Below are positions 8,601 to 46,302 of a DNA stretch of 64,000 nt, piece after piece. Both the position numbers and the translations under genes were made by a program. The stretch is from contig JAACJK010000165.1 of the NCBI GenBank assembly GCA_013368325.1, positions 372,001 to 436,000 on the forward strand, written 5' to 3'. The notes below the pieces were generated by a model that searched no databases, was not told the DNA's origin, and saw only the letters and a program-made list of their open reading frames with translations. Within the stretch, counting starts at the first letter, position 1, and every line of letters starts with the position of its first letter. This DNA is from Ephemerocybe angulata (taxonomy: Eukaryota; Basidiomycota; Agaricomycetes; Agaricales; Psathyrellaceae).

Positions 8601-8675
8601 GATTCGAAAGGCGGCGGGGTCCAGGATGGATCAGAAGGAGTCGGACCTAGTGGAGGACAAAGGGACGACCCGTAG
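5643..8675 (+). CDS. Ankyrin gene A: seven-transmembrane ankyrin-repeat protein
   Basis: Exons read as 5643-6039, 6108-6191, 6256-7125, 7176-7283, 7335-7421 and 7487-8675. The N-terminal half has about seven hydrophobic helices: three in exon 1 (including IAIYAQNLLCFFPAFWAL) and four in exon 3 (including LFLVPGLNLLLPIVVFLGF and LGLVFLLAINLVFII). Short ankyrin-like exons follow, then nine nearly identical repeats of about 35 residues with the core KLLLAAPGIDVNA and TPLSFAA. The C-terminus (ADVKRQL, then DEQDKCVRILEEF) is shared with genes B and C. This predicts a membrane protein with a large cytoplasmic ankyrin domain, role unknown. Between 7487 and about 7538 the frame does not join the ankyrin frame: one base is missing or extra near 7519-7536. 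Genes B and C have an extra intron there, so the gene may be frameshifted or the splice model incomplete. Confidence 0.75.
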
Positions 8676-12479: not shown

Positions 12480-12553
12480 CACCTGTACTTGTCTGAGTTG
12501 TGCAATAAAAGTCTGTAACGGATGTCCTCTCAGCAGTGCACAATCGACTTCAA
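12480..12553 (+). repeat. Left terminal inverted blocks of the KDZ transposon
   Basis: Two short conserved blocks, at 12489-12504 and 12536-12553, match in reverse complement the blocks at 32189-32204 (13 of 16) and 32141-32158 (17 of 18). Their distances from the two ends are nearly equal. The outermost 8-9 bp are not well conserved between the ends. Confidence 0.75.
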
Positions 12554-13618
12554 TGGTCCACTTTACACCCGGGATGCACCCTCCCGGGCTTGTACCATAG
12601 CGCATGCACCCGGAATTGGGGCATTCGTAATGTGGCAGTTGGCTCCTTTGGGAAGGCCGCCCACTACACGTGCAGCTCACCCTCCCGCCATCAATCGCGC
12701 TCCCCTTGCCAGTTTGGGAGGCCTATTTCAGGTACGGCTAAGAACTCTGATCTGGGCTGTCCCTCAGGGCTTTTTGGATTGTGGCGGGAATCTCGATAGA
12801 TCTCTCTCGACGAATCTGGCCTTTCAAGATGAATCGGGGCTGGCCGTATCCCGCGCGCCTCTCCTACCCTCCCCCGGTTCGCGCCTCCCCCGCTTTGGCC
12901 TAGCTTCTGTGCGTGAGCAGGGGTATCCATGAAATAGCTGAATGAAAAAGAAGGCATATACCCACCCCGATAGTGCTCTGTTACTATGCTCAATATAACA
13001 TAGACTTTCTATTCATATTCGAGGAATAACCGGCTGGGGCTCTGCGGCCCATTGGGCAACAACTGTACATGCAATGCACCTCACTCTTTACCCAAGCGTC
13101 AGAGCGTCCACATGCCGATTGGCCTATTCGGAAACCCAGACAATGATTGAACCCTCCAATGCACCTCCCCAGATCACCTTCCCTCCGTAATCAGGTCAAT
13201 GGTCATTGACCAGGCTGCACCTCGCTTAAATGTGCTCACTATCCAATGAATGACTGTACATCCCAATGCACATCACCCAGGTATTCATGTTCCTATTCGT
13301 AAACTACGACCGTAGATGGTGTAGCACCACGATCAATTAAAGGCTTGCTTATTCGGTTGCCGTGAAGGACTGTACACTTCGTTGCACCACCCTCGCCAGT
13401 TCTTCCGCTGAGAATTGTAGTCCATATACACCTCGGCGGAGGGGTGAGATGTTTAGGCTGATACTTACTCGGTACCTGGTCAAACGCCATACACCTGGAT
13501 GCACCTCGCGTACCCAGTCCCTCCACAAATTTGGCCAATGATTGTAGACCACCAAGCACCTGGGTAAATCCTCCGATGCACTGGCCCCCGTCCCGTGCAG
13601 ATACACCCCTGACGCACC

Positions 13619-13891
13619 ATGAAGAATTCCCGCCGGTTGGGTTGGGTTACACCCACGATGCACCCGTTCTCGATTCTTAGTCCTTTACACCATCAATACA
13701 CCATGAAGAATTTGACCCATCTTGTCCCTGTCTGGATCCCCCTTCGATGCCCCGACATGCGCATCAGTCCGGTGGGCGAAGATACACCTGCATTACACCG
13801 GTTCCTGGGTCGGGGATTGCCGTGGCCCCGATTGTACCTACCCCTGGGTTCGCCCCTTGGGCTGACCTCAGCGGACTGTGGTCATGCTTGA
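13619..13891 (+). other. Short open frame in left arm, mirrored in right arm
   Basis: A 90-codon frame contains LHRFLGRGLPWPRLYLPLG and SPLGLTSADCGHA. The minus-strand frame at 31301-31540 reads the same way (IHRFL, then LPRPRSYLPLGSPLGLTS, then GCSHA). The DNA is equally conserved, and both copies are followed by a TGAGCTAARCGCCCAAGACG block. I take the similarity as evidence for inverted arms, not for a protein. Confidence 0.45.
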
Positions 13892-14170
13892 GCTAAGCGC
13901 CCAAGACGGTGAGAGCCCCGCGCGCGTCTATCGCTCACCTAAGCGCCCGTTCCCCAGAACTTGTTTCTGAGCACCTCTCGTCGACGTATAAAATCAGATA
14001 AAATCATCTAAATTCTTAGAAATATAAATAACCCCTGAACCCACCTTCGCGAGAACCTGAGACCCCCTCGTTACGCGAAACCGCCCGTTTTCGGCCAGCT
14101 GAATACCGGGGAAACGGACACTCGCGCCAGACTAGTATCTAGATTAACCGTGGCAGTCGATTCCAAAGGC

Positions 14171-14240
14171 GCGCATGGCTAAGTGGTATTTGTGCGGATT
14201 CCGTTCTTCTAAGCGATGGAGGGTTCGAATCCCGGTTACT
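14171..14240 (+). other. tRNA-like segment with pol III A and B boxes, left arm
   Basis: TGGCTAAGTGG at 14176-14186 fits the internal A box, and GGGTTCGAATCCC at 14221-14233 is a perfect B box. CTTCTAA between them looks like a tRNA-Arg(TCT) anticodon loop. The acceptor and anticodon stems do not pair properly, so an intact tRNA is unlikely. A matching segment is in the right arm on the minus strand, and both are followed by TTTTATTCCTT. A tRNA-derived SINE head or decayed tRNA is the likely explanation. Confidence 0.55.
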
Positions 14241-14422
14241 TTTATTCCTTGACCTTTTTACTCTTTGCGATCCCCTCCGCTGCTCGACCGCTGGGATAAC
14301 CTCCCCAATGCCCTACCATAATGTTAGAATAATTTTAAATTTGCAAGTCATACTGCAGATTGAAGGGACTGCGCCATTGGTCCTTCAATGGGACTTCAGA
14401 TGCAGCAGGACACCCTCTCGAA

Positions 14423-14530
14423 AGCACCCGGGATGCCCCAGAGTCGCTTGATGCACCCGGGATGCCCCAGAGTCGCTTGATGCACTCGGGATGCCCCAGA
14501 GTCGCTTGATGCACCCGGGATGCCCCAGCA
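14423..14530. repeat. 29-bp minisatellite, almost four copies
   Basis: The unit GGATGCCCCAGAGTCGCTTG plus TGCACCCG-type ending starts at 14431, 14460, 14489 and 14518, an exact 29-bp period. Each unit carries one TGCACC-like motif (one copy has TGCACTC). Confidence 0.85.
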
Positions 14531-15135
14531 TATCGTAATACTCATAGCTCGTGTACTTAGCATACGGTAGATAATACGCCAGACCGACTGCTTACACCCG
14601 CCAAGCACCACCTATCGGTATTATTGGGTATCCTTTCTCTCGCCATAGAAAAGCAACTGGAATGCACCATCTGACCTTCCCCCAGTGTATCGCACCCTCC
14701 ATACATCAGATGCCGCAATGAGATGCCTATTTGCTTGCACGCGTCCCAGCTCCCAACCATTCCTCCCTCCGTCGGTGGATTCCATGCAATACGGTTTGTA
14801 TAATACCCATGTCGAGAGTCTGACGAATAGGTCTGAAACTCACCTAGCACCTCAACGTTCAATGAAATATCCAAGGCCGATACACCTTAGATACACCCTC
14901 TCTTACTCTAACTTGACGGAGATTCTTCTGAGCCACAACACCCGGCCGAAAGATGTATTGCACCTCTGATACACCGCCCACCGCTACACCCGGCCGAAAG
15001 ATTAAGGCCATTGCACCTCCTATGCACCATCCGCATAGACCAACGGTCCTAAGTCCATTTCACTTCTGTTGAACTACCCGGCTTACCCTTTGACGATTAT
15101 TCCTCCAAGTCCAAGGCACCATTGATGCACCGCCT

Positions 15136-15887
15136 GTCAAGTGTACACGCACATAATTTTTATATCAACGATGGGCGAGTACAGGTATATATCGGTATGT
15201 AAGAAATCACGAAGACAACGTGGAAGTGGAAGGAGAATGTCCATGGCTCGACCTAAGGTACGATCCAGATCATACGTAAGGTTAAAGCACGAATACCATT
15301 TATGTAATGAACGGGAGGGGAAATGGCCAATTGAGTGGGGGTGCTTGGGTGAGGGGGTAAGGAAGCCTTGTCCAATGTCCAAAATAAAGCAAAGAAATGG
15401 GGAGCTATGATGCAGACGGGCGCCACGAATCACAAGAACACGACGGCAAGATACACATATACAGGATGCCGCCTTGGGAAGGAGTGAGGAACAGAGGGAT
15501 GAAAAAGATAGCTGGAAACCAATATACAGGATGCTAAGAACTCGGGGTGGGGCAGGGGAAGGGTCGATGAACACACGCGCAGGATGGCAAGAAAATATGT
15601 ACAGGATGCCGAAGATGAGAAACGAAACCAGGAAACTTTGAGAGGTCTCGAAAAGGAGGGGAGAGAGAAAACTGTCCGAAAAGAATCATAAATAAGAATT
15701 GCGCTACCGGAGCGCGGGTATAAGTAAATAACGGGAGAGTGGTGAAGAGCGGAGATGGGCCATCAAATATAACATAGAGGGGGGATTGCGAAGGGCAGGG
15801 CATTGGGCTTCAAACACGCTTCAAACACGAGACCTGTAAGAGCCACAGCGCAGTTAGTGGCATTACCAATTTGAGCTCACGATTAAC
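15136..15887. other. Non-coding stretch 3' of the 1131-residue gene
   Basis: No gene is seen. The plus strand is purine-rich and only short frames occur. It probably contains the 3' untranslated region of the minus-strand gene ending near 15888. A possible last splice (donor after about 15892, acceptor near 15832) would change only the last few residues of that protein. Confidence 0.4.
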
Positions 15888-18800
15888 TCACCTTGTTCGC
15901 TTTGGGGAGGGTGCACCAGCGGGGTCATTCTCCTCAGCGCCACGCTTCAAGTTCTCGGGATAATAAGGGGCGGTGAAGATGAATGCGTCGAAAGTGTGGG
16001 AGATGTCGTCCAACAGAGCCTTCCAGGAGTCGCGCGAGTCCTCTCTAAACGGTTCTGGACCTGGTGCTGCGGCGCGACCCCACCACAGCATGAGCATGAT
16101 GAGTGAGAGTGTACCATTTGGCCCTGACCTCCGAAGCGGAGCCCAGAAATCTGTCTCAGCCGACTCGTCTTCGTATATGGGCAAGGGAAGGGAGGTATCG
16201 TCCGAGATGCGGAAAGCGGGCTGGATGGACTTCCACCACTTTGTGATGGCAATCCCGAACTCAGCTGGATCGTCGATGAATGGAGCTCGAGAGTGATTGC
16301 GTGCCCCGTGCGCGCCCTTGCTGGTCCATTTCGACCACTCCTCCGGGCGTTCTTTGACTGGCATGGAGCCCTATGTATCAGGGATGAACATCAGTGAGCG
16401 GTGAATGTCATAGATATGCTGCGTACCTTCACAACTCTTCCGTATCCAAGTGTTCGCTCGAGAGTAGCCCACTTACCTACCAAGCTAACCCACTCAGCAC
16501 CGAGCCCATCATCTTGGATGTCAGCCATCGCCGACGAAAACCAATCAGGGCATGTGAGTGGGGCAGCCTTACTGGGAGCCACCTTCGAAACAGTCGAGCG
16601 ATTTGTACCTATCTGCTGGAGACTCTCACGCTCTTTCGAGGGGACCGATCCTCGAAGAGATCGGCGAGGGTTGATGGGGGCTGCATCCGCATTCGTCGTC
16701 TTCTTTGGGAGATTAGTCGCCTTCTCTTGAGGAAGTGGGTTCGCGGGCACCACGGAAGCACCAGCCGCGGTGACAGAAGGTACCGAAGCAGGGTTAGGGG
16801 CATCGGGCTCAGGCGATGGCATTGGGATATCCCCAGGCTGAACAGGATTGGCTTGGGGTGGACGGTTCGGCACACCTAGTGGCTTTGGTTGTGGAATAGA
16901 AGGTGTTGGAACAGTGCCGGGTTGAGATAGGCTGGAGGTATCATGTTGAAGTGAAGATGCGCCGAGGTTGTGATCGGGAGTGACAATTTGGTTGGAAGAT
17001 GGAGAGTGCTGAGGTAAGGGTGCTTCTGCCGCAGAAGAGGCAACAGTGGGACCCTTGACAGGTACCGCCGGTGAAAGATATGACTCTTCCCCTCCGTGCA
17101 GCGCATGTAATGGACCTCCAGGTGGGGGGGCATAGCTAGGACGCGCTGGATAAAGTCGAACAGGACGAGGTGGCACGGGAGGAGGGGGAACGCTCGGGGC
17201 CGTGTCAGAGGGACGAGGGACGACGAGATCGGAAGACGGAGTTCGGGGTAAGGGTGCTTCTGCCGCATCTGAGGCAACTGTGGGACCCTTGACAGGTACT
17301 GCCGTTGAGAGATATAATTCTTCCCCTCCGCGCAGTGCATGTAATGGACCTCCAGGTGGGGGGGCATAGCTAGGACGCGCTGGATAAAGTCGAACAGGAC
17401 GAGGTGGCACGGGAGGAGGGGGAACGCTCGGGGCCGTGTCAGAGGGACGAGGGACGACGAGATTGGAGCACAGAGAAGGCTGAGAGAATCCTGCAGAAGA
17501 GCTCGATGAAGCTAGACCCGCCGTGGAAGTAGACTCATTCGAAGAACCCGAAGCCGAAGTTAAAGTCACAGTTCTGAGGAATGACGAACTTGATGTCAAC
17601 AAGTCGACCTCTGGGTTTAGCGGGCTTCGGCGGGGTGCTACGTATCCGGGAGGAACTAGGAGGCCACTTTGAGCTGGGGGATGTATGTCACGGTCAGAGT
17701 GTAAGGCAGAAGTGCCAAAGAACGTTGCGTTTAGGGTCGCCCAATCCGGGTTGGCAGGTACAGAGGGAGTGTAACCAGACGACGACGCTTTGGGTTCCAC
17801 TGGACGTGGTCCCAGAAGCCCATAATTCGTAAGACCATGCATACGCGGGAGAAGATCGTTATACGTTGCGGCAGGTGTCTCGAACATCGCTTTATTGAAC
17901 GACGCCGCATCATTATCAACGGCGAACTGGTTGTGGGAAGGTGCGGCCGTAGCGGATGGGCCCAAAGACTGGAATGACCCCGACGGTGAGGGGGAACTTG
18001 GCATTGACCCTGGGGTCATCCGGAGGAGATCTCCCTCTAGATCGAGATCGAAGTCGTCAAGGAGGTTGCCTGAGCTCAAATTTGAAAGGCCACCCAGACC
18101 ATTCCCGAAACCGTTCTGCAACGTCGAGTCCCATCCTATGACCAACGTCAGTACACGACCATTACAGTGCATGAATGAAGGGACTCACCATAATAGTTAG
18201 GCCAGGTTGGTAGAGGGCTCATAGAGGGAATTTTGCGAGGGGTCGAGAGGCGGAGAGCTGGACTGTCAGGAGGAGGAGAAGTCTCCCGCGAATGACTACC
18301 ATCGCGAAGTTCATTGGGGCTAGAAGGTGGACCTCCGGACAGTGTCGGTGCCACAGAGTTTGGATTAGGATCGGTCTCATCAGGACGGCGAGGACTCAGA
18401 TCGGAATTGACGGGCGATTCGGTGCCTTAGAACGCGAGATCAGCTTCGAGTCCCGACCTATTGAACGGAGAAGTACATACCTTGGGTCTCTGGACTTTTC
18501 TCCTCCATGACCCCGTCCTCAGAGTCCTCGGCAGGGACTTCCTTAGAGTGCTCGGCAGGGACTTCGGAATCTAGATCGAGAGTGATGATGAGCGTTAGCT
18601 TTGTCCCGAGATTGAGAAAACATACTAAAAACGTGTCGCTTTGCAAAACGAGCCACGGCTTCTACATAAACCCTGTCGTGGTCAACCCACGAGGACGAAA
18701 ACAGAGGTGTGTCGTCCTTGTCACCGAATTGAAGTCTGAAAATGAGATAAGTTCGAGTTCAAAATGAGGAGCGGGATTACGTACGTCCAAGCCGAAATTT

Positions 18801-19602
18801 TCCCACTCGCATCTGAAACTGGGCCGACGAGGGTAATGATTGCCATAAGCCCGGCCTTCCGAACAGGGGGCTCGACCACGCTCTTGAGAATTGCAGGGAG
18901 ATAGCTGATATAGCTGCAATCAAAATTAAAGGTCAGTCGTCGAAGAGATTAGATGAAGGCATACCGCTGGCGGTCTTTTGGGGTGGGGTCGTTGTCGTCC
19001 TCCTTCTCGTTCGTATACTTCTCAACGTGTTCGTCCACTGCCTTCAACTGCTCCTCTGTAGCCCTCGAATATAACTCTTTACAAACGGCATGCCACGCTC
19101 CAATCTTCCTTTTACCCCCCAGAGATTGCTCTTCACAACGTGCTTCATGGACTTCTGAGACCAATACGGGATTCAGCTTCGCGAATGCTTCGTATGCCTT
19201 GGGGCCACGGGTACGGGGAGTGTAGATTGATTTGAGGACTTTGGCGGGGACGGTAACGGCAACCTTCCTGCTCCGAGCATTGCATCGCCATCTAAACCAC
19301 TCCCGTAAGCGCTTTAATGATGTTAGTGTGCTGCTTCCGGGGCTAGGATACAGCTCATGACCACTCACATTCTGAAGCACTCCGAGAGCCTTTTGGTACT
19401 TGGTCATCTGCTCCGAGTCCAGGCTCTGAACTGTGAGACCAGGAAACAACGTGGCGATCAAAGGATATTCGTTGAGGTAGATTGAGTAGAGCTTCTTCCA
19501 GAATGGCTTATACTGGCGAGAGACTTGACATGATTCGTATTCCGGGATCAGTCCCGACAGGAGGGCCGTCTGCTGGGGGTTCGCCCACCCTGGTGGTGCC
19601 AT
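15888..19602 (-). CDS. 1131-residue Agaricomycete hypothetical protein (transposon passenger)
   Basis: Seven exons are read on the minus strand: 19602-18965, 18913-18785, 18735-18626, 18570-18481, 18425-18189, 18135-16427 and 16370-15888. All junctions keep frame and use GT-AG. The N-terminus (PGWANPQQTALLSGLIPEY, then FWKKLYSIYLNEYP, then REWFRWRCNARSR) and a later GDKDDTPLFSSSWVDHD match a large unnamed protein family I know from mushroom genomes. The C-terminal block does too (CPDWFSSAM, KWATLERTLGYG, RPEEWSKW, DPAEFGIAITKWWKSIQP, RRSGPNGTLSLIMLMLWWG). Between them is a long Ser/Pro-rich, low-complexity region holding a perfect-looking tandem duplication of 78 residues. Function is unknown. 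A TATA-like TATATA lies about 50 bp upstream of the ATG. It shares an intergenic region of 374 bp with the divergent viroplasmin gene. Confidence 0.75.
17014..17464. repeat. 234-bp in-frame tandem duplication inside the 1131-residue gene
   Basis: Anchors such as TGCTTCTGCCGCA (17021 and 17255) and CGTGTCAGAGGGACGAGGGA (17201 and 17435) are 234 bp apart. This is 78 codons, so the frame is kept. The two copies differ at only a few positions, which points to a recent duplication of a Pro-rich spacer. Confidence 0.85.
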
Positions 19603-19976
19603 AGAGGAGAGGGGGAAGATTCAATGGTTGTGATAAAGCACCACGGTCTGGTATATATTTCTACAACGGTTGGAGTCGTCGCTGAATTCTTAAGCAGGCA
19701 GTTCCTTGACCTATCTCGGTTTCAACCCGACTAAGCTGGCCCCGATAGCCACAGGAGACTACAGACAATCAAACAAAGAGGTTATCGGCCAGCTGGGACC
19801 CTCTATTCGCTTGGTCCACCCCTTCTAAATCCACTTGGTATACAATAGGGGTAGATCTGAGTACAAATAGTTCGCAAATAGCCGGCGGAGATCTATAAAG
19901 CAGTCCTTGCTCTTCGCAGAGCTGTCTAAATCTATCCGCCCTTTCTTCCACTCAACAACTCCACTTCTTCGAAACG
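19603..19976. promoter_or_regulatory. Divergent promoter region of the 1131-residue and viroplasmin genes
   Basis: The 374 bp between two divergent starts hold a TATATATT run near 19654-19661 suited to the minus-strand gene and a TATAAA at 19894-19899, 77 bp before the ATG of the plus-strand gene. No other sites were recognised. Confidence 0.5.
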
Positions 19977-21656
19977 ATGGCTTTTCAGTCTCACATGCAC
20001 CAGGAGGGTAGCGCCCCTCGCGGAACGACACTCTCCTGGGCTATGCGAGACTTACTGGCGTCTTTGATCCGTACTTTTGATACTCGTAAGTTTTCCTATT
20101 ATCCTCAAATGGCTCGGCTGGAATATGAACCCAACCACTTCGCCCAGGCCTCCACCTGATCAACGATGCAAAGAGGGGGGAGACTGAGTACCGTTAGTCA
20201 CTCAGAGCCGCATCACCATCGCCTTGTGCTGACCCTCTACCTCAGATCCCGACACCTGCTCCGTCTGTGACGGTGTAGGGTTTGTCATGGTACCCAACAC
20301 TCCGGGTAAGAGGGCTGACGTTCTAGAGCCCGAGAGCGAGGAGTACTACAGCAACTCTTCGCCTACTCCTTCGTGTACGTACATTCTCATCGATTTCTAT
20401 CACATCTCTTCTGACATCGCGGCCACTCAACCAGCTTCGCCCGAGCCAGGTGCTTCTGCTATCGCTCAAGCTGCCCCCGCCCAGGCTCCTGCCCCCGCCC
20501 AGGCTCCTGCCCCCGCCCAGGCTCCTGCCCCCGTTCAGGCTTCCGCCCCCGTCCAGGTCGTCCCGGCCCAAGCTGTGTCCATCCCGGCTCCTGCCTCTGT
20601 CCAGGGCCCTGGCCCGGTCACCGCTCCTGGCTCTGGGACCACGACGGCGGTCACCCCCGCTTCTGCCGCAGTCCCCGCCGCCACCGCACCTCCCCAGAAT
20701 GTCCTTGCATCCGCTCCTACCGCGCTTCTTATGCAGCCTCCCGCGACGACAACCGTCGCGAGCGTGTCTCCAGCCACCGTCACCGCCGCCACCACGACTG
20801 CGGCCTCCTTGCCTGCAGTCGCGCCTCTCGTTGCGGCGGGCACCTACCCCACCTACACCCTCTCGACGGTCATCCCCGGGTTCAACTCTCTCAGCCCCAA
20901 CAGCGCCAACCCTCAGCCCTGCCCGACCCCCGCGAACGCCGTCTTTGCTGGTCCCGGTAGACTGTCCAGGGTCCGGTTCGGTTCAGGTTCGGCCTATTTT
21001 GGCCTGAACCTGAACCTGAACCTGAGGTTCGGTTCGGGGACCAGCCCGAACCTGAACTTTTTCAAAATTTCCTAATTCGGCCAGTTTTAAATTTTAGGTG
21101 AAAATTTTTATATATTCTGAATCGTAATTCAAAACGCCATTCGAACGCAAAAAGAACGAAGCCAAACGGATAGATACACGCTGAGAAATGGGGCCCGTCA
21201 GATTGCCCAATGACTCGAGCGCCCAATAAGTGCCCGTAAAAAAGTTCAGGTTCGGCCAAATTCTGGATTTTTTCCGAACCTGGACCTGAACCTCAGGTTC
21301 GGTTCAGGTTCGGTTCAGGTTCGGAAAGTTCCGAACTTGACCGCGGACAGTCTAGGTCCCGGCGGTACGTCTAATTAGCTTCTTCCGCCGCTTCTTGACT
21401 TCTAATTCTCCGCCGCTCCACAAATAGAAGAGCGCTACTATGCTATCACCAGAGGTGTCCGTGTGGGTATTTTTGGAGGGTGGTAAGTCGGTTCCCGTCG
21501 ATTCTCAACAGTCTTCTAAGCTACCCGCACAGGCAGAACACCTCGCCCTACGTTACCTCGGTCGCCGCCGCCAGCTTCAGTCGCCACCGCACTCTGGAAG
21601 CCGCATTCCAGGCGTACGAGACCGCGTACCACCGAGGCTCTGTCTTCTACGTCTAG
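19977..21656 (+). pseudogene. Viroplasmin-like (RNase H1 N-terminal) domain gene, broken by a MITE
   Basis: The ATG at 19977 opens a first exon ending at about 20086. The second exon (from about 20247) codes for CSVCDGVGFVMVPN and, after a possible short intron, a long Ala/Pro/Gln linker. The linker ends FAGPG, where a 397-bp MITE (20958-21354) is inserted with duplication of GGTCCCGG. Downstream of the MITE, splicing 21364 to 21428 and 21482 to 21533 gives ERYYAITRGVRVGIFGG, WQNTSPYVTSV and AFQAYETAYHRGSV, then a stop at 21654-21656. That is the pattern of the viroplasmin/RNase H1 N-terminal domain, which in many mushroom proteins directly follows such a low-complexity linker. With the MITE in place, reading runs to a stop at 21073-21075 and the domain is lost, unless the MITE is spliced out. 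Confidence 0.7.
20958..21354. mobile_element. 397-bp hAT-like MITE
   Basis: The element starts TAGACTGTCC and ends GGACAGTCTA. The inverted repeat extends imperfectly to about 24 bp (20 of 24 matching). Both sides carry the 8-bp direct repeat GGTCCCGG (20950-20957 and 21355-21362). Both ends are rich in GGTTCGGTTCAGG-type repeats. There is no coding capacity. An 8-bp duplication and short TIRs fit the hAT superfamily; superfamily assignment is inference. Confidence 0.85.
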
Positions 21657-22919
21657 GATAGTCGGCTGTAGCGTTTCTGTTGCTCCCAATCTCTGTGACC
21701 TGCTCGCTATGTTTGTTCCCGTGTGTCTCGCGCCCTCACCTCTGTACATCTACATCTATATACCTTTTGTGCCTCTCCGACTTGGACTCCAATATATGCC
21801 GTCACTCCCTTGATATTTCCGCGTGAGGACTAGCATTTAAGATGGGCCTGAAATTCCAACTTAGCGCTTTGTACTGCTCGGCGCTTAAGAAGGCGCCCAC
21901 TGGCGCTTCTGTGAACGCCAAAAATAGAAATTGTGATCGCCGTCGGCAATGGCCGAGCGAGGACTTAGCGAATTTTTGGTGTGTCGTCGAGGTCGATAGT
22001 CATTTGGTCGGGCATTCTCACTACCCATTCCCTTGCAATTGCGTCAAAATAAATAAGGATGCTTGCCTGGTCGTTTATGGATGCGTAGAAATAGCGGGGG
22101 AGTGCGCAAATGCTCAAAATCACCGGCTTACAAGTCCAAATTTACGTTTGGGCGGGTAAAATGGACTTGACGGTGCACACATTGTCCTGATTGTCGATAC
22201 TGCATAGTCTATAGCTGTAGAACAATTCTAGAGTACTATCATTTCGCGTACTTATGATTTAGGACGTGCACAAGGCAGGTAGACCTGAAGCATTCGCCCG
22301 ATGCCGGCTCGACCTTCACGGAGTCCCCGTGTTTGGTCCACACTGCCCAGGGCTTACTATACCCTCAAATAGCCATGACATATTGTATTATAGTGTTCTT
22401 TGAGCTACATACATCGATTTAGGATGTTTGACAAAAAAACAGTGCAACGAGACTTGTGTTTGCTATGGAGAACTGGGCCAATATCTCGCATTACGCGTGC
22501 AAAAGGTAAATTTGTTCAAGTAACATATCAATATCCATCATACTACGAATATAGCCCTCCTTTCACAAATAGTACTCTCAAATTTCTTATCGAGTACATA
22601 TACAGCTCAGGATCGCATTATCTATGTCGTCGTGCAATCTAGCAGACCACTTTCCGCGCTGCGATTGGCTGATTGGATGTCCATATCGGGAAGGTCCAGA
22701 TCTCGGATCGGGATTCCATCGCGACCGTTACGGACAGGGGCTTCTTCTTCCGCTCACTTATATAAATCCGCCCTTCTCCAATGCTCGATTTTCTAGGACC
22801 TCTTTCAACCCAGCAGAACGCCCCCCCAACGCACCCCTGCACCCGTTTACACTTGGTATGTTGCCCCTCCCGCATTGCCGCTTTCGCCTGCTCACCGCGA
22901 CCAGATCTGAGCCGCTAAC
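21657..22919. other. Non-coding stretch upstream of the 148-residue gene
   Basis: No gene is supported. It contains CGGCGCTTAAGAAGGCGCC near 21876, an AT-rich part (22160-22620), and a TATATAAA at 22759-22766 that probably serves the gene starting at 22920. A GTATG donor-like site at about 22856 could start a leader intron ending just before the ATG. Confidence 0.4.
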
Positions 22920-23418
22920 ATGCCGAATACTTTCGCCGGCATGTTGACTGCTACGATGCTTTGTGACCTGTTCGTGGGCGCTATAGAGGTGACCGAGGTG
23001 GTTCTGGGAGGCGGGAACGGGGATCTTTACGCCAACTGGTTCTACGGGAGGCTTGTCACGAACCACGGCCTCCCGCCCGTCCCCCCAGGTCGAAACCGCC
23101 TTGCGCATTGGAGGCTCTATCGCACGGTGCGTCATGCTACCTTTTCAATAGAGACTAAAAGCTTAACTACCTTTGTAGTATATAATTGACCTCCTCCGCC
23201 GCATGGCACGTCGCCGACGCCGCGGCAGGCCCGCCGTCGTCGGCCCCAACGTTTACCGCGATCATCTTCGAGAGCTGCGCTCCCAGCTGCGCGCCCACCT
23301 CTTCTTCCAGCTCGACTTCGAGCGCTACATCAACCGCCCCCTCCCTCCTTGCTATTACCCGCTCTTTCACATCATATTCGGCCCCAACGGAAGCGATCGC
23401 ATCCTCCGTCGTCTGTGA
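22920..23418 (+). CDS. Small Arg-rich protein, 148 residues, unknown
   Basis: Two exons, 22920-23126 and 23179-23418, are joined by a 52-bp GT-AG intron and keep frame. The protein starts MPNTFAGMLTATMLCDLFVG, contains GGGNGDLYANWFYGRLV and then, after the junction, a basic stretch (RRMARRRRRGRP) and LRSQLRAHLFFQLDFERYINR. I do not recognise a family. The second half of exon 2 was duplicated in tandem right after the gene. A TATATAAA box lies 154 bp upstream. It lies inside the KDZ transposon and is a candidate passenger gene. Confidence 0.5.
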
Positions 23419-23611
23419 GCGCGTGAACAACGTTTACCGCGAGCATCTTCAAAAGCTGCGCTCCCAGCTGCGCGCCCACCTCTTCTTCCAGCTCGACTTC
23501 GAGGGCTACATCAACCGACCCATCTACCCTTGTTATTCCGCTCCTTCACATCCTCTTCGGCCCCAACAGGCGCGATCGCACCCTCTGTCGTCGATGAGCG
23601 CGTGAATGTCT
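23250..23611. repeat. 181-bp tandem duplication of the 3' half of the 148-residue gene
   Basis: CGTTTACCGCGATCATCTTC at 23250 recurs as CGTTTACCGCGAGCATCTTC at 23431, and the similarity continues to GTCGTCxGTGAGCGCGTGAA in both. The second copy is out of the gene and carries small differences, so it is a decayed extra exon. Confidence 0.8.
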
Positions 23612-24401
23612 CCATCTTGCTGTATATCTCGGGCGTGGCCCAAAGGACTTGTATTCTTGCCGAATGTGTAGCTAACGCGTGTCGATACCTTGTAGCTACA
23701 CATTCGCCCCTGCTGTGACTCTTACCCTCCCTTGCTTCCCCCTCCCTCTAAAATGACATTTCTTGTTGCTGTGTTCTTTCGTACTTGCGCGAAATGGTGA
23801 CTCGGAGGTAAGCTGGGGAGTTGGACGTGTCGTCGCGCGCGGATGACGCGTCCGACGCCGCAGAAGCACATTGGGACTTTCTCTTTAGACCTGGGTCTCA
23901 ACCGCTGCGAATAAGTCCCGACTTCAATCGAGAAGCGCGGATGCATCTCACAGGACCCGATTTGTGCGCGCAAGAGCAATATATCGATTGCTACCAATAA
24001 TAAGGACGAAACAGGGAAAGCCGCGCACTGAGAAGGCATTTCGTTGGTAAGATACCAATTTGAGAAACGTTATTACCGTTCGAGAGACTGGTATAGTCGC
24101 GTCCCGAGAAAGGTGAGTCAGGCAGGCGAAGTAGCCTATTTTTGCATAAGGCTACGACTAAGCCGTATTCTGCTGTGCCAGACATACTTACTGAGCTTAA
24201 CGGTCGTAATCCTATCTCTCGTTATCGGGGTGCAGCATATAAGATGTTTCTGCCGCTTCCACCAGCTACTCCCACCACCTTGCCATTGTTGCGCAATGCC
24301 GACGGAGGTATTGACTCCCTCAGACTGATCCGCGCAAAGACTGATGCGATCTGCATAAGGTTCACGGCTTTCGACGAGATTCGCTGCAGCTAATCACCAT
24401 C
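23612..24401. other. Non-coding stretch with a perfect 14-bp hairpin
   Basis: CGAATGTGTAGCTA (23661-23674) and its exact reverse complement (23693-23706) could form a 14-bp stem with an 18-nt loop. An open frame at 24142-24393 has no recognisable similarity and lacks clear gene signals. Otherwise nothing is seen. Confidence 0.55.
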
Positions 24402-24736
24402 ATGCAGAACGCTGACGACTTCGACGAAGCAATCAACCAAAATCAGGCGATACCGTGGCTGGAGAAGTTCTTTGACTATTGGTTCCAGCGGTGGCCCATA
24501 CGTATGAGGGATGCCAAAAAGCACGACGAACTCCTCGCGGCCGATAAGCTGGTGAGTACACGATTCTCGCTACCGGCCCCGTAGGGATTGGTGACCTACT
24601 ACTAATCCAGATTATCTACAAGGCACTCACTGCCTACACGACGGAGAATCTTCAATTGAGGGAAAGGGAACGACTTTTGGAGTGGGGCCGGCAGGTTGAC
24701 ACCGTATTTCAGGCATGGCTTTTGATGAATGAGTGA
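24402..24736 (+). CDS. Small protein, 91 residues, unknown
   Basis: Exons 24402-24551 and 24611-24736 are joined by a 59-bp intron with GTGAGT donor and CCAG acceptor. The product contains IPWLEKFFDYWFQRWPIRM and then an RERERLLEW helix. The aromatic FFDYWFQRWP stretch resembles the FW..L...W..RWPE motif of large Agaricomycete hypothetical proteins, such as the one at 15888-19602. A similar role in the element is possible but unproven. It is convergent with the minus-strand gene ending 33 bp downstream. Confidence 0.5.
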
Positions 24737-24768
24737 ATTGGGATCCCTATATATAGCTTCTATAGTAC

Positions 24769-25523
24769 CTATACACGCCCTAGGCCCCAAATTCTATCGC
24801 TGAGTACTCTTAGAAACACTGGGCGGCCGTCTGTAAATGCCCGCAAGTCCTCTGCCGCAAACACAGCAAGTCGCGCTACCCACAACAAATTAAAATATGC
24901 TATGGAGTCTGTTTGAGAGAATTGAAGGACGGGAACACCTTCAACTATCCTATAGAGGGCCTTGTATAGTTTCTGTAATCGTGAATATTCCCCCCAGAGT
25001 TCCTCCTTCACCTCGGTGTCCGTTGCGTTGTGAAATCGAGCCATCCTGGCAGTAAGTTCCTCCCTGTACTGTTTCTGCAGGTGGCCGTGTATTGCTGCTG
25101 AGATCGCGCCAGATATGTTCTCGAAAGTATCCATTGTGATTGCTGTGAGTGAACTTGGATAAGGGGGCAGTCCGACGAGTCCACTAATATCCTTCTCGTC
25201 TAGTTCAACTTCGTCAAGGATGAGCACATCTTCACCCTGGACGAAGCGTTTGTAAATGTGATGCGATTCCGCCCATGATATGGGCACGATGGCGTGCCGT
25301 GTTACCGAGTCAGGGACGATCGGGGGCGGCTTCCGGCGTAGGTACTGACGGCGATTCTCTGCCTTGCGGGCTATTGCGGCGCTGAGTATCCTCGATAAGT
25401 CCTTCCGAGCATTGTGGTAGGATGTAGGGGTACTTACCCCGGTTTGAGCTTCAAAACATTTCTCTGTGCCTTTCGGGCCTCATTCTTCGCTCTTATGGTG
25501 AGGTACTTCGCACTTCGACCCAT
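24769..25523 (-). CDS. Hypothetical protein, 235 residues, divergent from the KDZ transposase
   Basis: Exons read on the minus strand are 25523-25438 and 25390-24769, with a 47-bp GT-AG intron. The start MGRSAKYLTIRAKNEARKAQ and the following ENRRQYLRRK resemble basic N-termini of small proteins found in mushroom genomes. The rest is acidic and helical (VLILDEVELDEKDISGLVGLP, then EELWGEYSRLQKLYKALYRIV). An open frame extends upstream of 25523 but has no ATG, which is why I chose this start. The function is unknown. Its position head-to-head with the transposase, 234 bp apart, suggests co-regulation. Confidence 0.5.
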
Positions 25524-25757
25524 TTTAGCGCTTGAGTCGTGCTGTAGGTGAACAATGAGATCAGGATATCCAATGCGGTAAATTGGTAGTGCCAAGCGCC
25601 CAGGGCCTCGCTTACGTGAGCTGTCGTCCTTGAGCCACGCTGGGTCATCCCATCTTGACGGTCCCAACCATGTCAAATCTGGGGTAGTCAGCTCTACATC
25701 GGCCCAACCCAATTTATCGCATTTTCATTCTTTCCTCCTGCTATTCAGAACACAGCC
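25524..25757. promoter_or_regulatory. Shared promoter region between KDZ transposase and the 235-residue gene
   Basis: The 234 bp separate two divergent ATG codons. No clear TATA box is seen; a pyrimidine-rich CTTTCCTCCTG stretch lies just upstream of the transposase start. Confidence 0.45.
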
Positions 25758-28700
25758 ATGCCCAAGGACTCTGGGAAGCATGGGAAGAAGAAGAAAATCA
25801 AGGTATCCACGTACCAGCCGACTACTTTGGATGCCCCTCTCCCCCGTCCCGACACCGGCCAGGCATCGAGCTCTCGGACGCTACAGACTACGAAACTGAA
25901 AACCTTCGCCAGCGGGGTGTTCAAAGTCGAGGTACTGGCCAGCGCACCATCCGGGGTGTGCGCTCCAAATGTCAAAGTAAATGATTCTCGGACGACGGAG
26001 GACATTCTGGCCTCGTGGATCGATGCTAGTGAAGATAACGGTTGGGATCCTGCATACGTTGACAGTTTCCTTGAGAAGGACCTTCCACCACCGACAGAGG
26101 ACCCGGAGGAGGAGGAGGAGGAGGGCACAAAAGAATCAAAGCGACCTAAGGGCCAGGGAGTACGTTCAAGTTGTCATTTTTAACTTGCGTGGACGTCGTT
26201 GAACTTTTTCACACTTAGGATACAGCAAAGCATGAATGGACAAAACATATTGACTCGTATCTACGGGCTCTAATAACTCTCGAAGGTCGTGGAAGAGATC
26301 CCCCGAGTACTTGCCCAAGGTGCAGGTCCGATCGCTCAGCCCAGTATCGGTGCATGGAGTGCGACAACTTGGGGCTTCTCTGCGGGGTGTGCATTGCAGG
26401 TTGCCATTCCCCAACCCCACTACACAGAATTCAGGTTGGTTTGATTCTTCACCTATCGAGGGGCTCCCTTCACTAACCTACGCCTCTTTAGATGTGGAAC
26501 GGGTATTTCTTCCAGAAGGTCTCCCTCAAGTCGCTTGGGCTACGCATACAGCTGGGACATGCCCCTGGAGAGAAATGCCCCAAACCAGATACCGCATGGG
26601 GAGACGACTTCGTTATCATCGACACGCAAAGTGTTCACACCCTTGGTGTGGATTACTGCTCATGCGGGGCGTCGACGAAAAGCCAGGTCGACCAGCTTCT
26701 CGAAAGAAGGCTCTACCCCGCCACGACGATCAATCCGAAGTCTGCAGCAACATTCCGTGTTCTTGAGGTGTTCGAAATTCTACAGTACGAGTCCAAAGTC
26801 TCCCCGTATGAGCTCTTCAACGCCATATCCCGCCTCACTGACAATACCGGTCTTACTGGCGTGAAGGTACGTGGTTTATGGGCCGTAATTTATTTCTACC
26901 ATATACTAACATTGGCGTAGGATCGATATCCAAGCTTCCTCCGAATGGTGCACGAATGGCGCCATCTCAAGCTGCTAAAGCGACACAGGAGAGGTCACGA
27001 CCCGGTCCGCTCGGCGGCTGAGACGAAGGAAGGCGAATGTGCACTCTTATGTCCTCCTTGTCCGCATCCCGAGATCAATATGCCTCTTGGCTGGGAGGAT
27101 GAGCCAGAAGACACAAGGTAATATCAAGTCGCTTCTCCCATACAAACATATAATTGACCATCTGATAGATATATTCATGCTCTCAACCTAGCTCTCGACG
27201 CTTGCTTCCGTCTAAAGCGCAAGGACGTCTCCTCAGAGAAGGCCGATCCCGGTCTTAGCGACGGCTACTCCTACTTTGTTAAAAATCCCAAGTTCGTCGA
27301 ATTCCTCGAAACACACAAGGACGAGGTAGAGCCGAAGAGCACTTGCTCCCGCCACGATGCTGTTAACCTCGCCGACGTTAGCCCTGGACAGGGTTACGCA
27401 GCCACTGGTGTGGCCACGGTGGAGTGTGCCAGGCACAATATGAAGCGTCCGTCAGCCGTTTGTGACTTGCAGAAGGGCGAAAGGTGTGTACCCTTTCATT
27501 TACAGCACATGTTCTCACTGAATGAATAACAGATATTGTAATATGGATTTCATTCTCCACTGGAGCCTCGTTGTGTTAGCTCTCGGCGTTCTTCACACGT
27601 TTTACATCTCCTACGACATTGCGTGTCAATGGTCGAAATATCTGATGGAGCGGCTCAAGGCCATCGATCCGACAGGCCCTCTGCTCAAGGACAAGTCTAA
27701 GGCTCGCTTCCTCGTCCCTAAATTCCATCTCCCGGCGCACATCGCATCTTGTCAAACTAAGTTCGCGTTTATGTTTACGCCGGGTGCCGGTCTTGGTGAC
27801 GGTGAGGCTCCGGAGAGGGGATGGGGCGAGGCGAATCCTCTCGCCCCCAGTACGCGGGAAATGGGGCCGGGAACGCGACGTGATACTCTAGACTACAACT
27901 TCGGGGATTACAATTGGCGTAAGATAATCGATCTAGGTGCAGTGTTATTCTTTCTCCAGCGTCGTACTCAAGCATTAACCAATACAATTTGCCAGGTTCT
28001 TCGCTGATGAAGAAGATGGATACCGCATTGTCGAAGGTCGCCGAGAATACCATTGCCCACGCGGAGCTCGAAGAGACGATCGACCCTGCAGTGCTTGATC
28101 AGTGGACAGCCGATATGGTTTCATGGGAACAAAATCCAGCGGAGAGTAAGAACCCATTCGAAATGACTGTGTCAACGCCAACGCAGGTGGCAGTTCGACG
28201 TGCCCTCGCCGATGAGGAAGCCGCAGCACTCGCCGCTGGGAAAGATGTGTCCCTCAATCCGGACATTCCTCCCAGTGTCTTAATATCTCGCGGGATTGAC
28301 CTAGAGGCTGATCAGTCAGTATATCTTCAATCTGTTTCATATTCCGATATATACTGACAAGTCACGACGTAGGCGCACCCTGAAGTCCGAGATGAAGAAA
28401 ACGTGGACTCATTCAAGAGATCGGGAACTCACTCGAATTCAACTCCGTTCCAACGCCCTCGTTCGGCGGATCGACGCTTGGTATCAAGTACTCCAGCTCT
28501 ACATTCCAGCTTCAATCCTCCTTCGCCAGAAAGCAACTGGTCCCAAGACAGTCCCCCCCTACGAGCTCGCGCTATGGTTACCCTCCCAAATCGGAATGCA
28601 GGCACCCGTCGACCAACGTCTAATCGGAATCGAGTATCAACTTCGAGAGGCCCAAGCGCAGGAAGCATTGACGACCTTGCGAAGATGTCTACAGCGCCGT

Positions 28701-29517
28701 GTAACAGTCTACGATCTCAAGAAGCGGTGGCTCCGAGGACAAGGGGCCAATACTAAGGCTCTCAACCTGCTTGGCAACATCGAAGCTCAAATTGCCGCAG
28801 CGAAAGACGAATACAGGGACGCTCGCGTGGCTCTTCTTTCACTAGGGAAGATGATGGGGAAAGTCGGGCTTGAAAGTTTCTACTTGCCCCTAGAGGATGC
28901 CGACGTTCGGGCGATGGCAGCTCCCGCTCTAGATCCGAATGAGAAAGAGCCAGTGACGTCAAAGCAGAAACAGAAGGAGAAACGGAAGACGAGGGAGACG
29001 ACGCGAACGATATCTTGGATTTGGAGGCACGCGTCTGCTGCAGAAGACAATCATACTGAGTACGAAGCTGAAAGTGAGTAACTCGCCTTCTTGAGGGATC
29101 CGGATCACCTTCAACTTGTATTTTTCCGTAGCTATTAAGGTAGAATGGGCCAAATCGAGGGCGAGGGCCGCTCGCTACCATGAAGAGATCAAGATTGTCA
29201 AAGAAGAGATGGCTCGCACAAGAAGGTTTTTCGTGTGGAAGGAGAATACCTGGTACGAGGCCTCCCATGCAAAACAGGACGCCAGGGAAGTTGAGGCAGA
29301 CTATAGCGAGGGACTTCAAGCGTACGCGAAGAGGCAAGCTTCCATATGTGTTAGCCTTCGCAGGAAGTTCGACCATATGTGGAAGGGGCTTGATGAACAA
29401 ATTGAAGTTGCGATGGCTGAGATACATGACCCCGCCCTATTCTACGCAAGGCGCGCGAAGGAGGAGAATCCGACTGATCCTGTCCCAAGCCCCTCCATTC
29501 TTATGGACACATCTTAG
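25758..29517 (+). CDS. KDZ (Kyakuja-Dileera-Zisupton) transposase with CxC2-like cysteine cluster
   Basis: Nine exons (25758-26159, 26219-26434, 26492-26866, 26921-27117, 27169-27483, 27533-27936, 27996-28314, 28373-29073, 29132-29517) join in frame to 1104 residues. After an acidic N-terminus comes a cysteine cluster (C166, C169, C179, C182, C189, C192, C196-H197) followed by HRIQMWNGYFF, the CxC2-like KDZ-associated zinc finger. The catalytic domain shows RYCNMD (D507), SYDIACQW (D530), LVPKFHLPAHI and DGEAPERGWGEANPLA (E596), all familiar KDZ blocks. The C-terminal third is rich in basic and helical coiled segments. No stop or frameshift is present, so it may be active. It should act in the nucleus, cutting and joining the element ends. 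It lies near the right arm of the 19.7-kb element. Confidence 0.85.
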
Positions 29518-30319
29518 TGTATTTCGTTTTCTGTTGTATGGTAGTCGTATAATTACAAGAAGACCTTATTGGGAAGTTATGGGAACCTCGGGGTGCTCAA
29601 GTTTCGGAACCTCGGCGTCGTGGTGTATTGCGGGGTACAATGGACCTCTCTGCGCGTAGGGTGTATGGATTGTGCATCCAGCCTGTGGGGTGCCGAATAG
29701 AATCTCATTACCCGTTGACGTGTGGTGCATCAGAGTCAACGGTGTGTGTAAGTCTCTGTGTGTCATGGAGGGTGGAAATAGAATGGAGCGTACTACACTA
29801 TAGGTTGGCGCGTGAGGTGCATTATACTCAACGACCGTCGATATACAGGGGAAGCAGAATATCCCCGAGCTATCCTGCACAGAGGTCTCATTTCTCTCTC
29901 AAGCGGACCAATTTTAATAGTCGATGCACCGGGCGCTTATTAATAGCCGCCGACTCGTTCACTAGCTCAGGTGCATCATCCTCAACAATAATTGAGATGT
30001 ACCTTAGCGGAAGGGACTGCTCGTAAGTACCACTGCGGGTATGAACCCCAAGAGTCTCTATATTAGATGCAGGGACTAAGGTGCAGGCTTTCCTGCCCAA
30101 ATCATACGTATTACGAACCCCAGTCGCGCCCTGCTGGCAAGTAAGCTATCCGCACCCGATTTTCAATCCGTTTGGCGACATATCTAGCCTTTGTGTCGCG
30201 CACAAACCAAGAGCCATATAATCTGACAGGCAGACGGGACGGCATTGGAGGGGCATGAAATGGTATGGCCAGTGACTCTTGCGCCAAGCACCAAACTTGA
30301 ACCCACGCTCGAGGAGATC

Positions 30320-31040
30320 AGGAAGCCGTGGTCATTGGTGATTACGGTCGTTCAGCGGGTTCCGAGTACAAAGTGCTGATTGGCCGACGTACCCGGTGTT
30401 CTACAGCTTGAGGTGCATCCAGGTGAATGAGTGTTGACTGGGGAGCGAATAAGCGCCAGGCATTTCAGGAGAACAGGACGCCATGGTGCATTGGACATTA
30501 CGGTCATTCAGCGGGTTCCGAGTACAAAGCGCTGGTTGGCCGACGTACCCGGTGTTCTACAGCTTGAGGTGCATCCAGGTGAGTGAGCGTTGACTGGGTA
30601 GCGAATAAGCGCCAGGCACTCCAGGAGAACGGGAAGCCGTGGTGCATTGGTGATTACGGTCATTCAGCGGGTTCCGAGTACAAAGCGCTGATTGGCCGAC
30701 GTACCCGGTGTTCTACAGCTTGAGGTGCATCCAGGTGAATGAGTGTTGACTGGGTAGCGAATAAGCGCCAGGCACTCCAGGAGAATAGGGAGCCGTGGTG
30801 CATTGGTGATTACGGTCGTTCAGCGGGTTCCGAGTACAAAGCGCTGGTTGGCCGACGTACCCGGTGTTCTACAGCTTGAGGTGCATCCAGGTGAGTGAGC
30901 GTTGACTGGGTAGCGAATAAGCGCCAGGCACTCCAGGTACAAAGCGCTGGTTGGCCGACGTACCCGGTGTTCTACAGCTTGAGGTGCATCCAGGTGAGTG
31001 AGCGTTGACTGGGTAGCGAATAAGGGCCAGGCGTTGGCAC
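30320..31040. repeat. 156-bp tandem repeat array
   Basis: CAGCGGGTTCCGAGTACAAAG starts at 30353, 30509, 30665 and 30821, an exact 156-bp period. A fifth copy is shortened by about 50 bp (GTACAAAGCGCTGG recurs near 30938). Each unit has GAGGTGCATCCAGG and AATAAGCGCCAGG. Copies differ by a few substitutions. The array lies wholly inside the right arm. Confidence 0.9.
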
Positions 31041-31149
31041 CCGATACCCCCGGCGAAGTGGGGACTACAATCAATGTTAAAGGATTGCGGTAGAGCTGGC
31101 AACTGTAGGCGAAGGGCGCAGAGCAGCAAAAAAGGGAAGGAATAAAATT

Positions 31150-31222
31150 CACCGGGATTCGAACCCTCGATCGATTAGAAGAGTGCGGTCTGCACCGAAG
31201 CCACTGAGCCATACCGGCCGTC
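31150..31222 (-). other. tRNA-like segment with pol III A and B boxes, right arm
   Basis: On the minus strand TGGCTCAGTGG (31211-31201) fits an A box and GGGTTCGAATCCC (31166-31154) is a perfect B box, with CTTCTAA between them. The stems are not those of a proper tRNA. It mirrors the segment at 14171-14240, including the TTTTATTCCTT tail. Confidence 0.55.
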
Positions 31223-31300
31223 AAGGTCAGCCAACCACTGTTAATGTGGACACGACCTGGCGCGATTATCCGTTTTCCCTCACCGTCTTGGGCGTTTAGC

Positions 31301-31540
31301 TCAAGCATGACTGCAGCCTCCGGAGGTCAGCCCAAGGGGTGAACCCAAGGGGAGGTACGATCGGGGCCGCGGCAATTTCTGTCGCAGGAAACGGTGTATC
31401 GCAGGTGCATCATTGGCGCAGAATGAGCATGTCGGGTGCATCGAAGGTACATCCACACAAGGGGAGACAAGGTGGGTCAAATTCGACACGGTGCATTGAT
31501 GGTGTAAATGACTAACTATCGAAATACGGATCGGGTGCAT
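31301..31540 (-). other. Short open frame in right arm, mirrored in left arm
   Basis: A 79-codon minus-strand frame contains AIHRFL, then RPRSYLPLGSPLGLTS and GCSHA, and is collinear with the plus-strand frame at 13619-13891. I regard it as a marker of the inverted arms; coding status is doubtful. Confidence 0.45.
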
Positions 31541-32140
31541 CGTGGGTGTAACTCAACCCAACCGGCGGGAATTTTAATGGTGCATCAAAGGTGTATCTGG
31601 AAGGGACGGGGGCCAATTCTCGAACCACGGCGTCATCCAGCAGGTGCATCAAGGGTGGATATACATGGAACGTACACGCTTCGCCGCGAGTGCATCAAGG
31701 GTGTATCTGGACCGGGGCCTGGGGTTCCCAATGGTGCATCGCGGGTGTATCTGCGCGGGACGGGGGCCATTTCTCAGATACGCAGCGGGTGCATCAAGGG
31801 TGCATTGCGTGGAGGCCGGGCGAGTGCAAGCCTAAAGGTGCTTCAAAGGTGCTTGATGGAGCCGCACACCTCCGTACACGCGCTCCTCCTCGAAGGCCCG
31901 ATTTGGGCTACTCTTATCGCGATCCCTACCGATCCCATCTTGAATCTGGGCTTCCCTGCCAGATGAAACTACCCCCTTCAGGATGGATCCGCGAGAAGGA
32001 CATGGGATCAACGAGAGGGCGGGAGGGCGCACGAAGTACCAACAAATCGCGCCCTCCAGTCGAGACCGCGATAAACGGAACAAGGAAATGGTGGGAGATG
32101 GGGCATGCACCCTGTATGCACCCTGTAAAATCCTCAACGT

Positions 32141-32212
32141 TTGAAGCCGATTGTGCACCACAAAGTCGTTTACAATCAAAGCACTTGGTGCATTACTCTG
32201 ACAACATCGGCT
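32141..32212 (-). repeat. Right terminal inverted blocks of the KDZ transposon
   Basis: Blocks at 32141-32158 and 32189-32204 are the reverse-complement partners of 12536-12553 and 12489-12504, at nearly equal distances from the element end. Confidence 0.75.
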
Positions 32213-32220
32213 GTGCGGCC
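32213..32220. repeat. Right target-site duplication of the KDZ transposon
   Basis: GTGCGGCC repeats the 8 bases at 12472-12479. The ankyrin frame resumes directly after it with ACGAAGCT. Confidence 0.85.
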
Positions 32221-32537
32221 ACGAAGCTGCTGTCAAGGTCCTCCTCGCCGCTCCTGGCATCAACGTCAATGCGGTAGACACCAGTGGGTGGACGGCCTTG
32301 ACTTGGGCAGCCTTCAATGGCAGAGAAGATATTGTCCAGAACCTCTGCGCAGTTCCCGAGATTATCGTCGATGTGGCGGACGTCAAGCGGCGGTTTGAAG
32401 ATCCACCTGAAGGTTGGCGGTGGGGTTCTCCTGCATCGAAGGATGTGCAGGACAAGTGTGTTCGGATATTGGAAGAATTTGTGGAGTCGAAAGGGGGCAG
32501 GGCGAAGGGTGGAACAGAGCAGTCTAGTGGAGGATGA
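32213..32537 (+). pseudogene. Ankyrin gene B, 3' portion
   Basis: Reading resumes in frame with the part ending at 12479: HEAAVKVLLAAPGINVNAV, DTSGWTALTWAAF, VADVKRRFEDPPEG and QDKCVRILEEFVESKGG, with a stop at 32535-32537. This equals the C-terminus of genes A and C. It has no start of its own and is the displaced end of gene B, 19.7 kb from the rest. Confidence 0.85.
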
Positions 32538-46121: not shown

Positions 46122-46302
46122 TGTTACGATACCTCCCGTCTCGTCAGCCTCTCGGCTCACTTCCCATATATACCTTCTGTCATACACTCGGACTACTCTA
46201 CTGTCGTCCTCTTGTACCTCCATACGTATACACGTCTTTGTCTCTTTCCCTCGCCTGTGCCTCGATCGTCGCCCGCACCTCCGACCGTGTCCGTTCCTGA
46301 CA
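46122..46302 (+). repeat. 5' LTR of the outer Ty3/Gypsy element
   Basis: A 181-bp repeat, TG...CA, with no difference seen from 60046-60226. It contains a TATATA box at 46167-46172, 31 bp before the likely transcript start. Confidence 0.92.
46167..46210 (+). promoter_or_regulatory. TATA box and self-primer sequence in the outer LTR
   Basis: TATATA at 46167-46172 is followed 31 nt after its first base by CTACTGTCGTCCT (46198-46210). This 13-mer is the exact reverse complement of 46305-46317, directly behind the LTR. In Tf1 and related elements the transcript start folds back on the primer-binding site, so this probably marks the RNA 5' end. Confidence 0.7.

Follow-up and report, generated by a model that had tools for sequence, protein, structure and literature searches.

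Few transposons of the KDZ group, which was reportedly named by Iyer in 2014, have defined ends. Here we describe an element with a KDZ transposase gene in a 64,000-nucleotide stretch of the genome of the mushroom Ephemerocybe angulata (contig JAACJK010000165.1, here C152, positions 372001-436000; this stretch is the window, and its own numbering is used unless another sequence is named), compared with the remainder of a 58.7-Mb genome of 232 contigs. Mushrooms commonly harbour KDZ elements, Marasmius oreades being one example (PMC8290104), and in the oyster mushroom a CxC2 region stands before intact KDZ genes (PMC7641404). Kyakuja, a KDZ group of Agaricomycetes (Kojima 2025), is described with a 7-bp target site duplication (TSD), CA..TG termini and no terminal inverted repeats (TIRs), and Zisupton with an 8-bp TSD; the same account names TET/JBP as the extra gene for which KDZ elements are known and gives CAC..GTG termini and a 3-bp TSD for EnSpm (PMC12730594). 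In Cryptococcus, KDZ1-3 measure 9-11 kb and carry TIRs of 139-241 bp (PMC12810828), and such KDZ elements have been termed large mobile elements of about 11 kb (PMC12510652). The window element resembles those of Cryptococcus as a large mobile KDZ element that duplicates its target and lands in genes, but differs in its TSD, which is 8 bp for KDZ1 and 4-8 bp for KDZ2 and KDZ3, and in the CxC2 that takes the place of their CxC1 (PMC12810828).

The window holds a complete KDZ transposon copy inserted into one ankyrin gene, with 7 bp of target duplicated. The original prediction had placed the element at 12480..32212, between two copies of the 8-mer GTGCGGCC. This 8-mer is indeed present on both sides (12472-12479 and 32213-32220), and the left edge stands; comparison with other copies, however, reduces the TSD to the 7 bp TGCGGCC (12473..12479 and 32214..32220) and identifies the leading G of the right-hand 8-mer as the last base of the element, which thus extends one base further, to 32213 (12480..32213, plus strand, 19,734 bp), has 5'-CA..TG-3' termini and shares its terminal sequences with other copies. 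The right terminal 40-72 bp matched two other contigs, both matches ended precisely at the proposed edge, and a C directly precedes that edge in all three places, so that the ends read CAGCCGATG.. (A end) and CACCTG.. (B end). The ankyrin gene lies to the left (12011..12479, plus strand) and to the right (32221..32539, plus strand) of the insertion, as predicted: with the element cut out and the duplication reduced to a single copy, its frame is open and the two parts join in frame. A 219-bp query made from the joined flanks gave 148 matches to ankyrin paralogues, the best at 86%, and 20 of them (counted by eye) span query positions 1-219 over exactly 219 bases. Since ankyrin repeats are tandem, these matches show the repeats to be back in regular register once the flanks are joined.

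Other copies with the same ends at different flanks, the check that had been proposed, were found. Both ends were located in seven elements including that of the window, with sizes of 17.3-27.6 kb, and an exact 7-bp TSD flanks all seven. The other six are C125:118275-143698 (25,424 bp, TSD GAATAGC), C16:686493-714043 (27,551 bp, GGCGTGC), C98:380786-406802 (26,017 bp, ACACCAC), C152:470056-496250 in contig numbering (26,195 bp, CCCCTAC), a second C16 element, C16b, with its A end at 500355 (17,330 bp, CTCCCAA), and an element on C11 from 152380 (17,427 bp, GTAGATA). For C16, C98 and C152:470056 sequence matches and patterns gave both ends before the flanks were compared; for C125, C16b and C11 the TSD itself was used in finding the B end. 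The 8-bp duplication of Zisupton type that had been claimed did not survive this comparison. A chance neighbouring base permits an 8-bp reading in three elements, with one shift for the window element and C16 and the opposite shift for C16b. For the other four (C125, C98, C152:470056 and C11) neither shift allows it, and there is no one shift that suits all seven. Assignment to Zisupton, which is alike in its KDZ-group transposase but has an 8-bp TSD (PMC12730594) against the 7 bp found here, was rejected on these grounds.

The elements also differ in length. Retrotransposon frames lie inside the KDZ gene of the C125 and C16 elements and account at least in part for their greater length; C16b and C11, which have no such insert, measure 17.3-17.4 kb. 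The C11 element is 98-100% identical to sequences on C105, C106 and C107 over 2.1-4 kb, and three groups (C11/C107, C117/C139/C190 and C18/C69/C157) have identical 70-bp ends with different flanks. Recent movement is probably the simplest reading of these near-identical copies, those on C105 and C106 being known from sequence inside their outer flanks.

At its left end the window element has the B-type terminus CACCTGTACTTGTCTGAGTTGTGCA (12480..12504, plus strand), which in other elements lies on the KDZ-gene side, and at its right end the A-type terminus CAGCCGATGTTGTCAGAGTAATGCAC (32188..32213, minus strand), which in other elements lies on the side of a gene that we call G1. With up to three mismatches, the A-end pattern occurs at 14 places in the genome including the window, and the reversed control pattern at none. 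The B-end pattern is weak by itself, as it occurs at 20 places and its reversed control at 14; eight of the 20 were assigned to elements through adjoining KDZ genes. The mirrored blocks noticed earlier at the two edges are real: A and B ends form imperfect inverted repeats of about 25 bp, alike at 17 of 25 positions in the window element and at 12-17 across the seven elements (shuffled sequences, 7.7, standard deviation 2.0), and a second GGTGCA is common to both ends near position 54-60.

Comparison of open reading frames with the C125 and C16 elements, together with tblastn searches against C16b and C11, supports four conserved genes, G1 to G4, besides the KDZ gene, G5, instead of the five or more others that had been proposed. 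G5 (25758..29517, plus strand), modelled by splice-site joining, has nine exons and encodes 1104 residues, open throughout. The spliced KDZ protein with a CxC2 zinc cluster that had been recognized from sequence was confirmed: the model matches the KDZ domain (PF18758, E 3e-59, profile positions 3-217 of 217) and CxC2 (PF18803, E 3.6e-37), with the cysteine cluster ahead of the catalytic KDZ domain. Its last 720 residues differ at three sites from an annotated E. angulata DFP72DRAFT protein (P0041, on a contig of 556,349 bases); the agreement lends support to this stretch of the model, and the protein perhaps comes from another strain, encoded there by the same element or by a recent copy of it. 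G1 (also P1; 15888..19602, minus strand) is a multi-exon gene for about 1,030 residues, conserved in other copies, with a conserved N-terminal region, a Pro/Ser-rich middle and a conserved Trp-rich C-terminus; the boundaries of its middle exons are approximate. Among public proteins, 12 of E. angulata (984-1438 residues) and one of Candolleomyces aberdarensis (772 residues) are related to it. G2 (19899..21656, plus strand, start provisional) encodes a protein rich in Pro and Ala that ends in an RNase H1 N-terminal (Cauli_VI) domain, PF01693; this domain scored above the cut-off in all four copies tested. G3 (22911..24733, plus strand) is an approximate model built around conserved pieces at about 22911-23186 and 24345-24733. 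G4 (also P2; 24769..25523, minus strand, intron 25382-25437) encodes 232 residues, is conserved in other copies and is predicted to be all-helical, the model being of good confidence with a predicted local distance difference test (pLDDT) score of 87.7.

These genes recur together across the genome. A G1 query gave 53 matches at 37 loci and a G4 query 43 matches at 40 loci, and every one of the 37 G1 loci is accompanied by a G4 match on its own strand and in unchanged order; the distance is at most 22 kb and mostly 5-6 kb, with outliers at C107:25255 (9.3 kb) and C190 (19.6 kb). A KDZ match lies beyond G4 on the opposite strand at no fewer than 33 of the 37, a lower bound because the KDZ list is incomplete; the G1 loci with no KDZ match are C104, C107:25255, C115 and C208, and in the last two G4 is less than 2 kb from the contig start. 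Each of the 18 other G3 matches has a G4 match no more than 1 kb away on the opposite strand. The five genes are all present in each of the five elements compared (window, C125, C16, C16b and C11), although the G3 match in C11 is weak (E 0.004 and 7.6e-4). Among the public proteins, 7 of the 13 listed G1 relatives are apparently on a contig with a KDZ relative (by eye, from 120 listed of 2095 KDZ matches). Recurrence in a constant order throughout the family makes these genes look like core parts of the element, and not like the passengers, comparable to those of Starships, that the original prediction had made of them; judged from sequence, it is the conserved set and order that show G1 to G4 to be core rather than loose cargo.

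Starships are organized around a tyrosine-recombinase captain and carry variable cargo. The window element is like them a large fungal mobile element with several genes, but its transposase is of the KDZ group and its set of genes is fixed. No Pfam match to a tyrosine recombinase captain was found in the 20 reading-frame pieces and seven sequences that made up the scan, other pieces of the window lying outside it, and a Starship-like variable cargo of host origin was rejected on the presence of the same five genes in all five elements compared. That the additional genes are nonetheless captured host genes, and the window element a one-off composite, would agree with three accessory genes that match no known domain and with a size that is large beside the 9-11 kb of the Cryptococcus KDZ elements (PMC12810828). 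We regard it as very improbable: the same order at 37 loci speaks strongly against capture, as do the identities of those loci with the window copy, 27-62% for G1 and 29-54% for G4, since divergence at 37 ordered loci indicates genes that have long travelled with the element. It also seems very improbable that KDZ forms one transposon and G1 to G4 belong to another nested beside it. Such a pair would fit the unequal rates of divergence, core pieces of KDZ being 84-91% identical between the window and the C125 and C16 elements and G4 just 41-44%, but a single pair of ends and a single 7-bp TSD bracket G1, G4 and KDZ in all seven elements, and no further A or B end lies inside them (the search was for A- and B-end patterns; other types of end between G4 and KDZ were not sought).

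The family is also clearly separated from TET/JBP. Profile searches gave 30 TET/JBP matches in the genome, 25 of them over the Pfam cut-off, and none of these 25 lies within 15 kb of G1 or G4; the comparison covers the 25 and leaves out the five below the cut-off, and a PE-type TET may escape the profile. In the typed KDZ list, 18 of the 25 are within 6 kb of a KDZ match, and most TET/JBP genes adjoin a different KDZ lineage: two KDZ domains taken from beside TET/JBP genes share 26 and 31% identity with the window KDZ over about 100 residues, and those of nine family members are 77-88% identical to it and form one clade with it. Kyakuja shares with the window element the KDZ transposase, the 7-bp TSD, the 5'-CA..TG-3' termini and a mushroom host, but is reported to be without TIRs (PMC12730594), whereas the window family has short imperfect inverted repeats, alike at 12-17 of 25 positions. 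In contrast to Kyakuja, the family has no TET/JBP gene and has four other conserved genes. Despite the similar termini, we have not filed the element as Kyakuja, because its transposase is not close to the TET-linked KDZ proteins of this genome. The best reading of its type is a TET-free five-gene KDZ element with Kyakuja-like ends that is neither Zisupton nor Starship-like. Four KDZ genes elsewhere (L032, L034, L035 and L036), with no G1 match nearby, are 50-59% identical to the window KDZ in a C-terminal piece of the KDZ domain and are possible sister elements.

Inside the termini are arrays of short words. In the window element TGCACC, reading inward, occurs 8 times at the left and 17 times at the right end, and the reverse word GGTGCA 0 and 4 times; the corresponding counts are 12 and 22 against 4 and 2 in C125, and 10 and 29 against 2 and 3 in C16b. 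In the middle of the elements both words together amount to 0.64-1.31 per 1.8 kb. The arrays are thus cleanly mirrored in three of the five copies (window, C125 and C16b). In C16, in which CATACAC-like words are enriched, one end only fits the mirrored pattern (10 against 3). A tandem array with mainly 156-bp spacing and GGTGCATC motifs (30333..31032) forms part of the subterminal motif array of the window element. These words are putative protein binding sites, and the word appears to have diverged with the subfamily.

Several observations weigh against our reading of the element. Both ends are located for seven of the 37 loci only, and those of C125 are alike at just 12 of 25 positions, the lowest of the seven. 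G1 has no Pfam family and no PDB match, and its structure model is poor (pLDDT 60.9); G3 matches no known domain; G4 has neither a Pfam family nor another known domain, a protein search found no relative of it at E <= 0.01, and its model matched no solved structure at Foldseek E <= 0.001. The enriched words of the arrays were chosen after the fact and counted with no shuffle control, the left end of C16 runs contrary to the mirrored pattern (TGCACC 3, GGTGCA 9), and TGCACC is scarce in C11 (4 and 0), in which TGCATTA-like words are enriched instead. Taking both sides together, the window very probably carries, in full, a TET-free KDZ transposon of several genes, namely KDZ and four core accessory genes. 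The element type is real, complete and probably recently mobile, and it combines a KDZ transposase with four accessory genes that belong to it. The literature that we searched, whose scope did not include Iyer 2014, Repbase or the supplementary tables of PMC12730594 and took in the longer result lists in part, describes no five-gene KDZ element.

The window copy has an unusual arrangement. Read by eye, every other A end (13 places) is on the side of G1 and every other assigned B end (nine places) on the side of KDZ; the window copy has both the opposite way round. This copy is also the only one of the five compared with detectable subterminal inverted repeats. The main repeat pairs 13582..13913 (plus strand) with 31279..31615 (minus strand) at 81%, the second pairs 14108..14269 (plus strand) with 31117..31279 (minus strand) at 73%, and the larger subterminal inverted blocks of this copy are 73-96% alike. 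Since these repeats bracket the gene block, recombination between them would flip it, and the block appears to have been flipped relative to the ends most simply in this way. An assembly error across the inverted repeats, the true element having the ordinary order, would explain why the window copy is the sole flipped case among 14 A-end places and why this happens in the one copy of five that has subterminal inverted repeats, where assemblers can fail. We consider such an error possible but doubtful, because arms that are just 73-96% alike should be distinguished by long reads. Both arms of the second repeat contain a similar tRNA-like stretch (14168-14262 and 31125-31219) with a B-box-like GGTTCGAATCCCGG; neither ARAGORN nor Rfam made a call on these two stretches, which could be a relic of an RNA polymerase III promoter.

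The structural case is strong, and the mechanism is one that we infer. In plant CACTA/Spm elements an accessory protein, TNPA, binds subterminal repeat arrays and brings the ends together. CACTA elements can be large, as in the 20.5-kb soybean element (PMC2613891), and in outline the window family is alike in its large size, accessory protein and subterminal arrays; it differs in having a KDZ domain and a 7-bp TSD, where CACTA/En-Spm has an unrelated transposase, other termini and a 3-bp TSD. By analogy, the subterminal arrays suggest a multi-protein, CACTA/Spm-like machinery. The KDZ transposase would probably cut at the CA..TG ends and join the element to a 7-bp staggered cut in the target, and one or more accessory proteins, perhaps G1 or G4, would probably bind the arrays near both ends and join the ends as TNPA does. 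G2, with a domain that binds RNA-DNA hybrids or double-stranded RNA, might conceivably protect transcripts or counter silencing. More tentatively, the family may be a separate KDZ lineage of Psathyrellaceae that moves by means of five proteins, among them DNA-binding accessory proteins in co-evolution with the arrays of each subfamily and an RNase H1-type hybrid-binding protein as an anti-silencing alternative to TET/JBP, and its gene block may be able to flip between the two ends. With 37 loci, defined ends, four accessory genes, near-identical copies and a clean separation from TET/JBP, one can ask why such an element needs five proteins, and the five-gene family likewise lets one ask how silencing is escaped without TET.

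Ankyrin genes form a large cluster on C152 at about 77-763 kb, which contains most of the 148 matches of the 219-bp query; within the window, ankyrin loci are found at 7602-8672, 12011-12479 and 45486-46355. At least three loci of the five-gene KDZ family lie in this stretch of C152 (contig positions 384480 and 470056, and a G1/G4/KDZ set at 612-627 kb). The window further contains the open frames of two long terminal repeat-type retrotransposons, at 49434-54631 (minus strand) and 55658-59795 (plus strand), both with reverse transcriptase, integrase and chromodomain and the first also with gag, and an open frame with a DUF4246 domain (538-1563, plus strand, E 1.9e-84).

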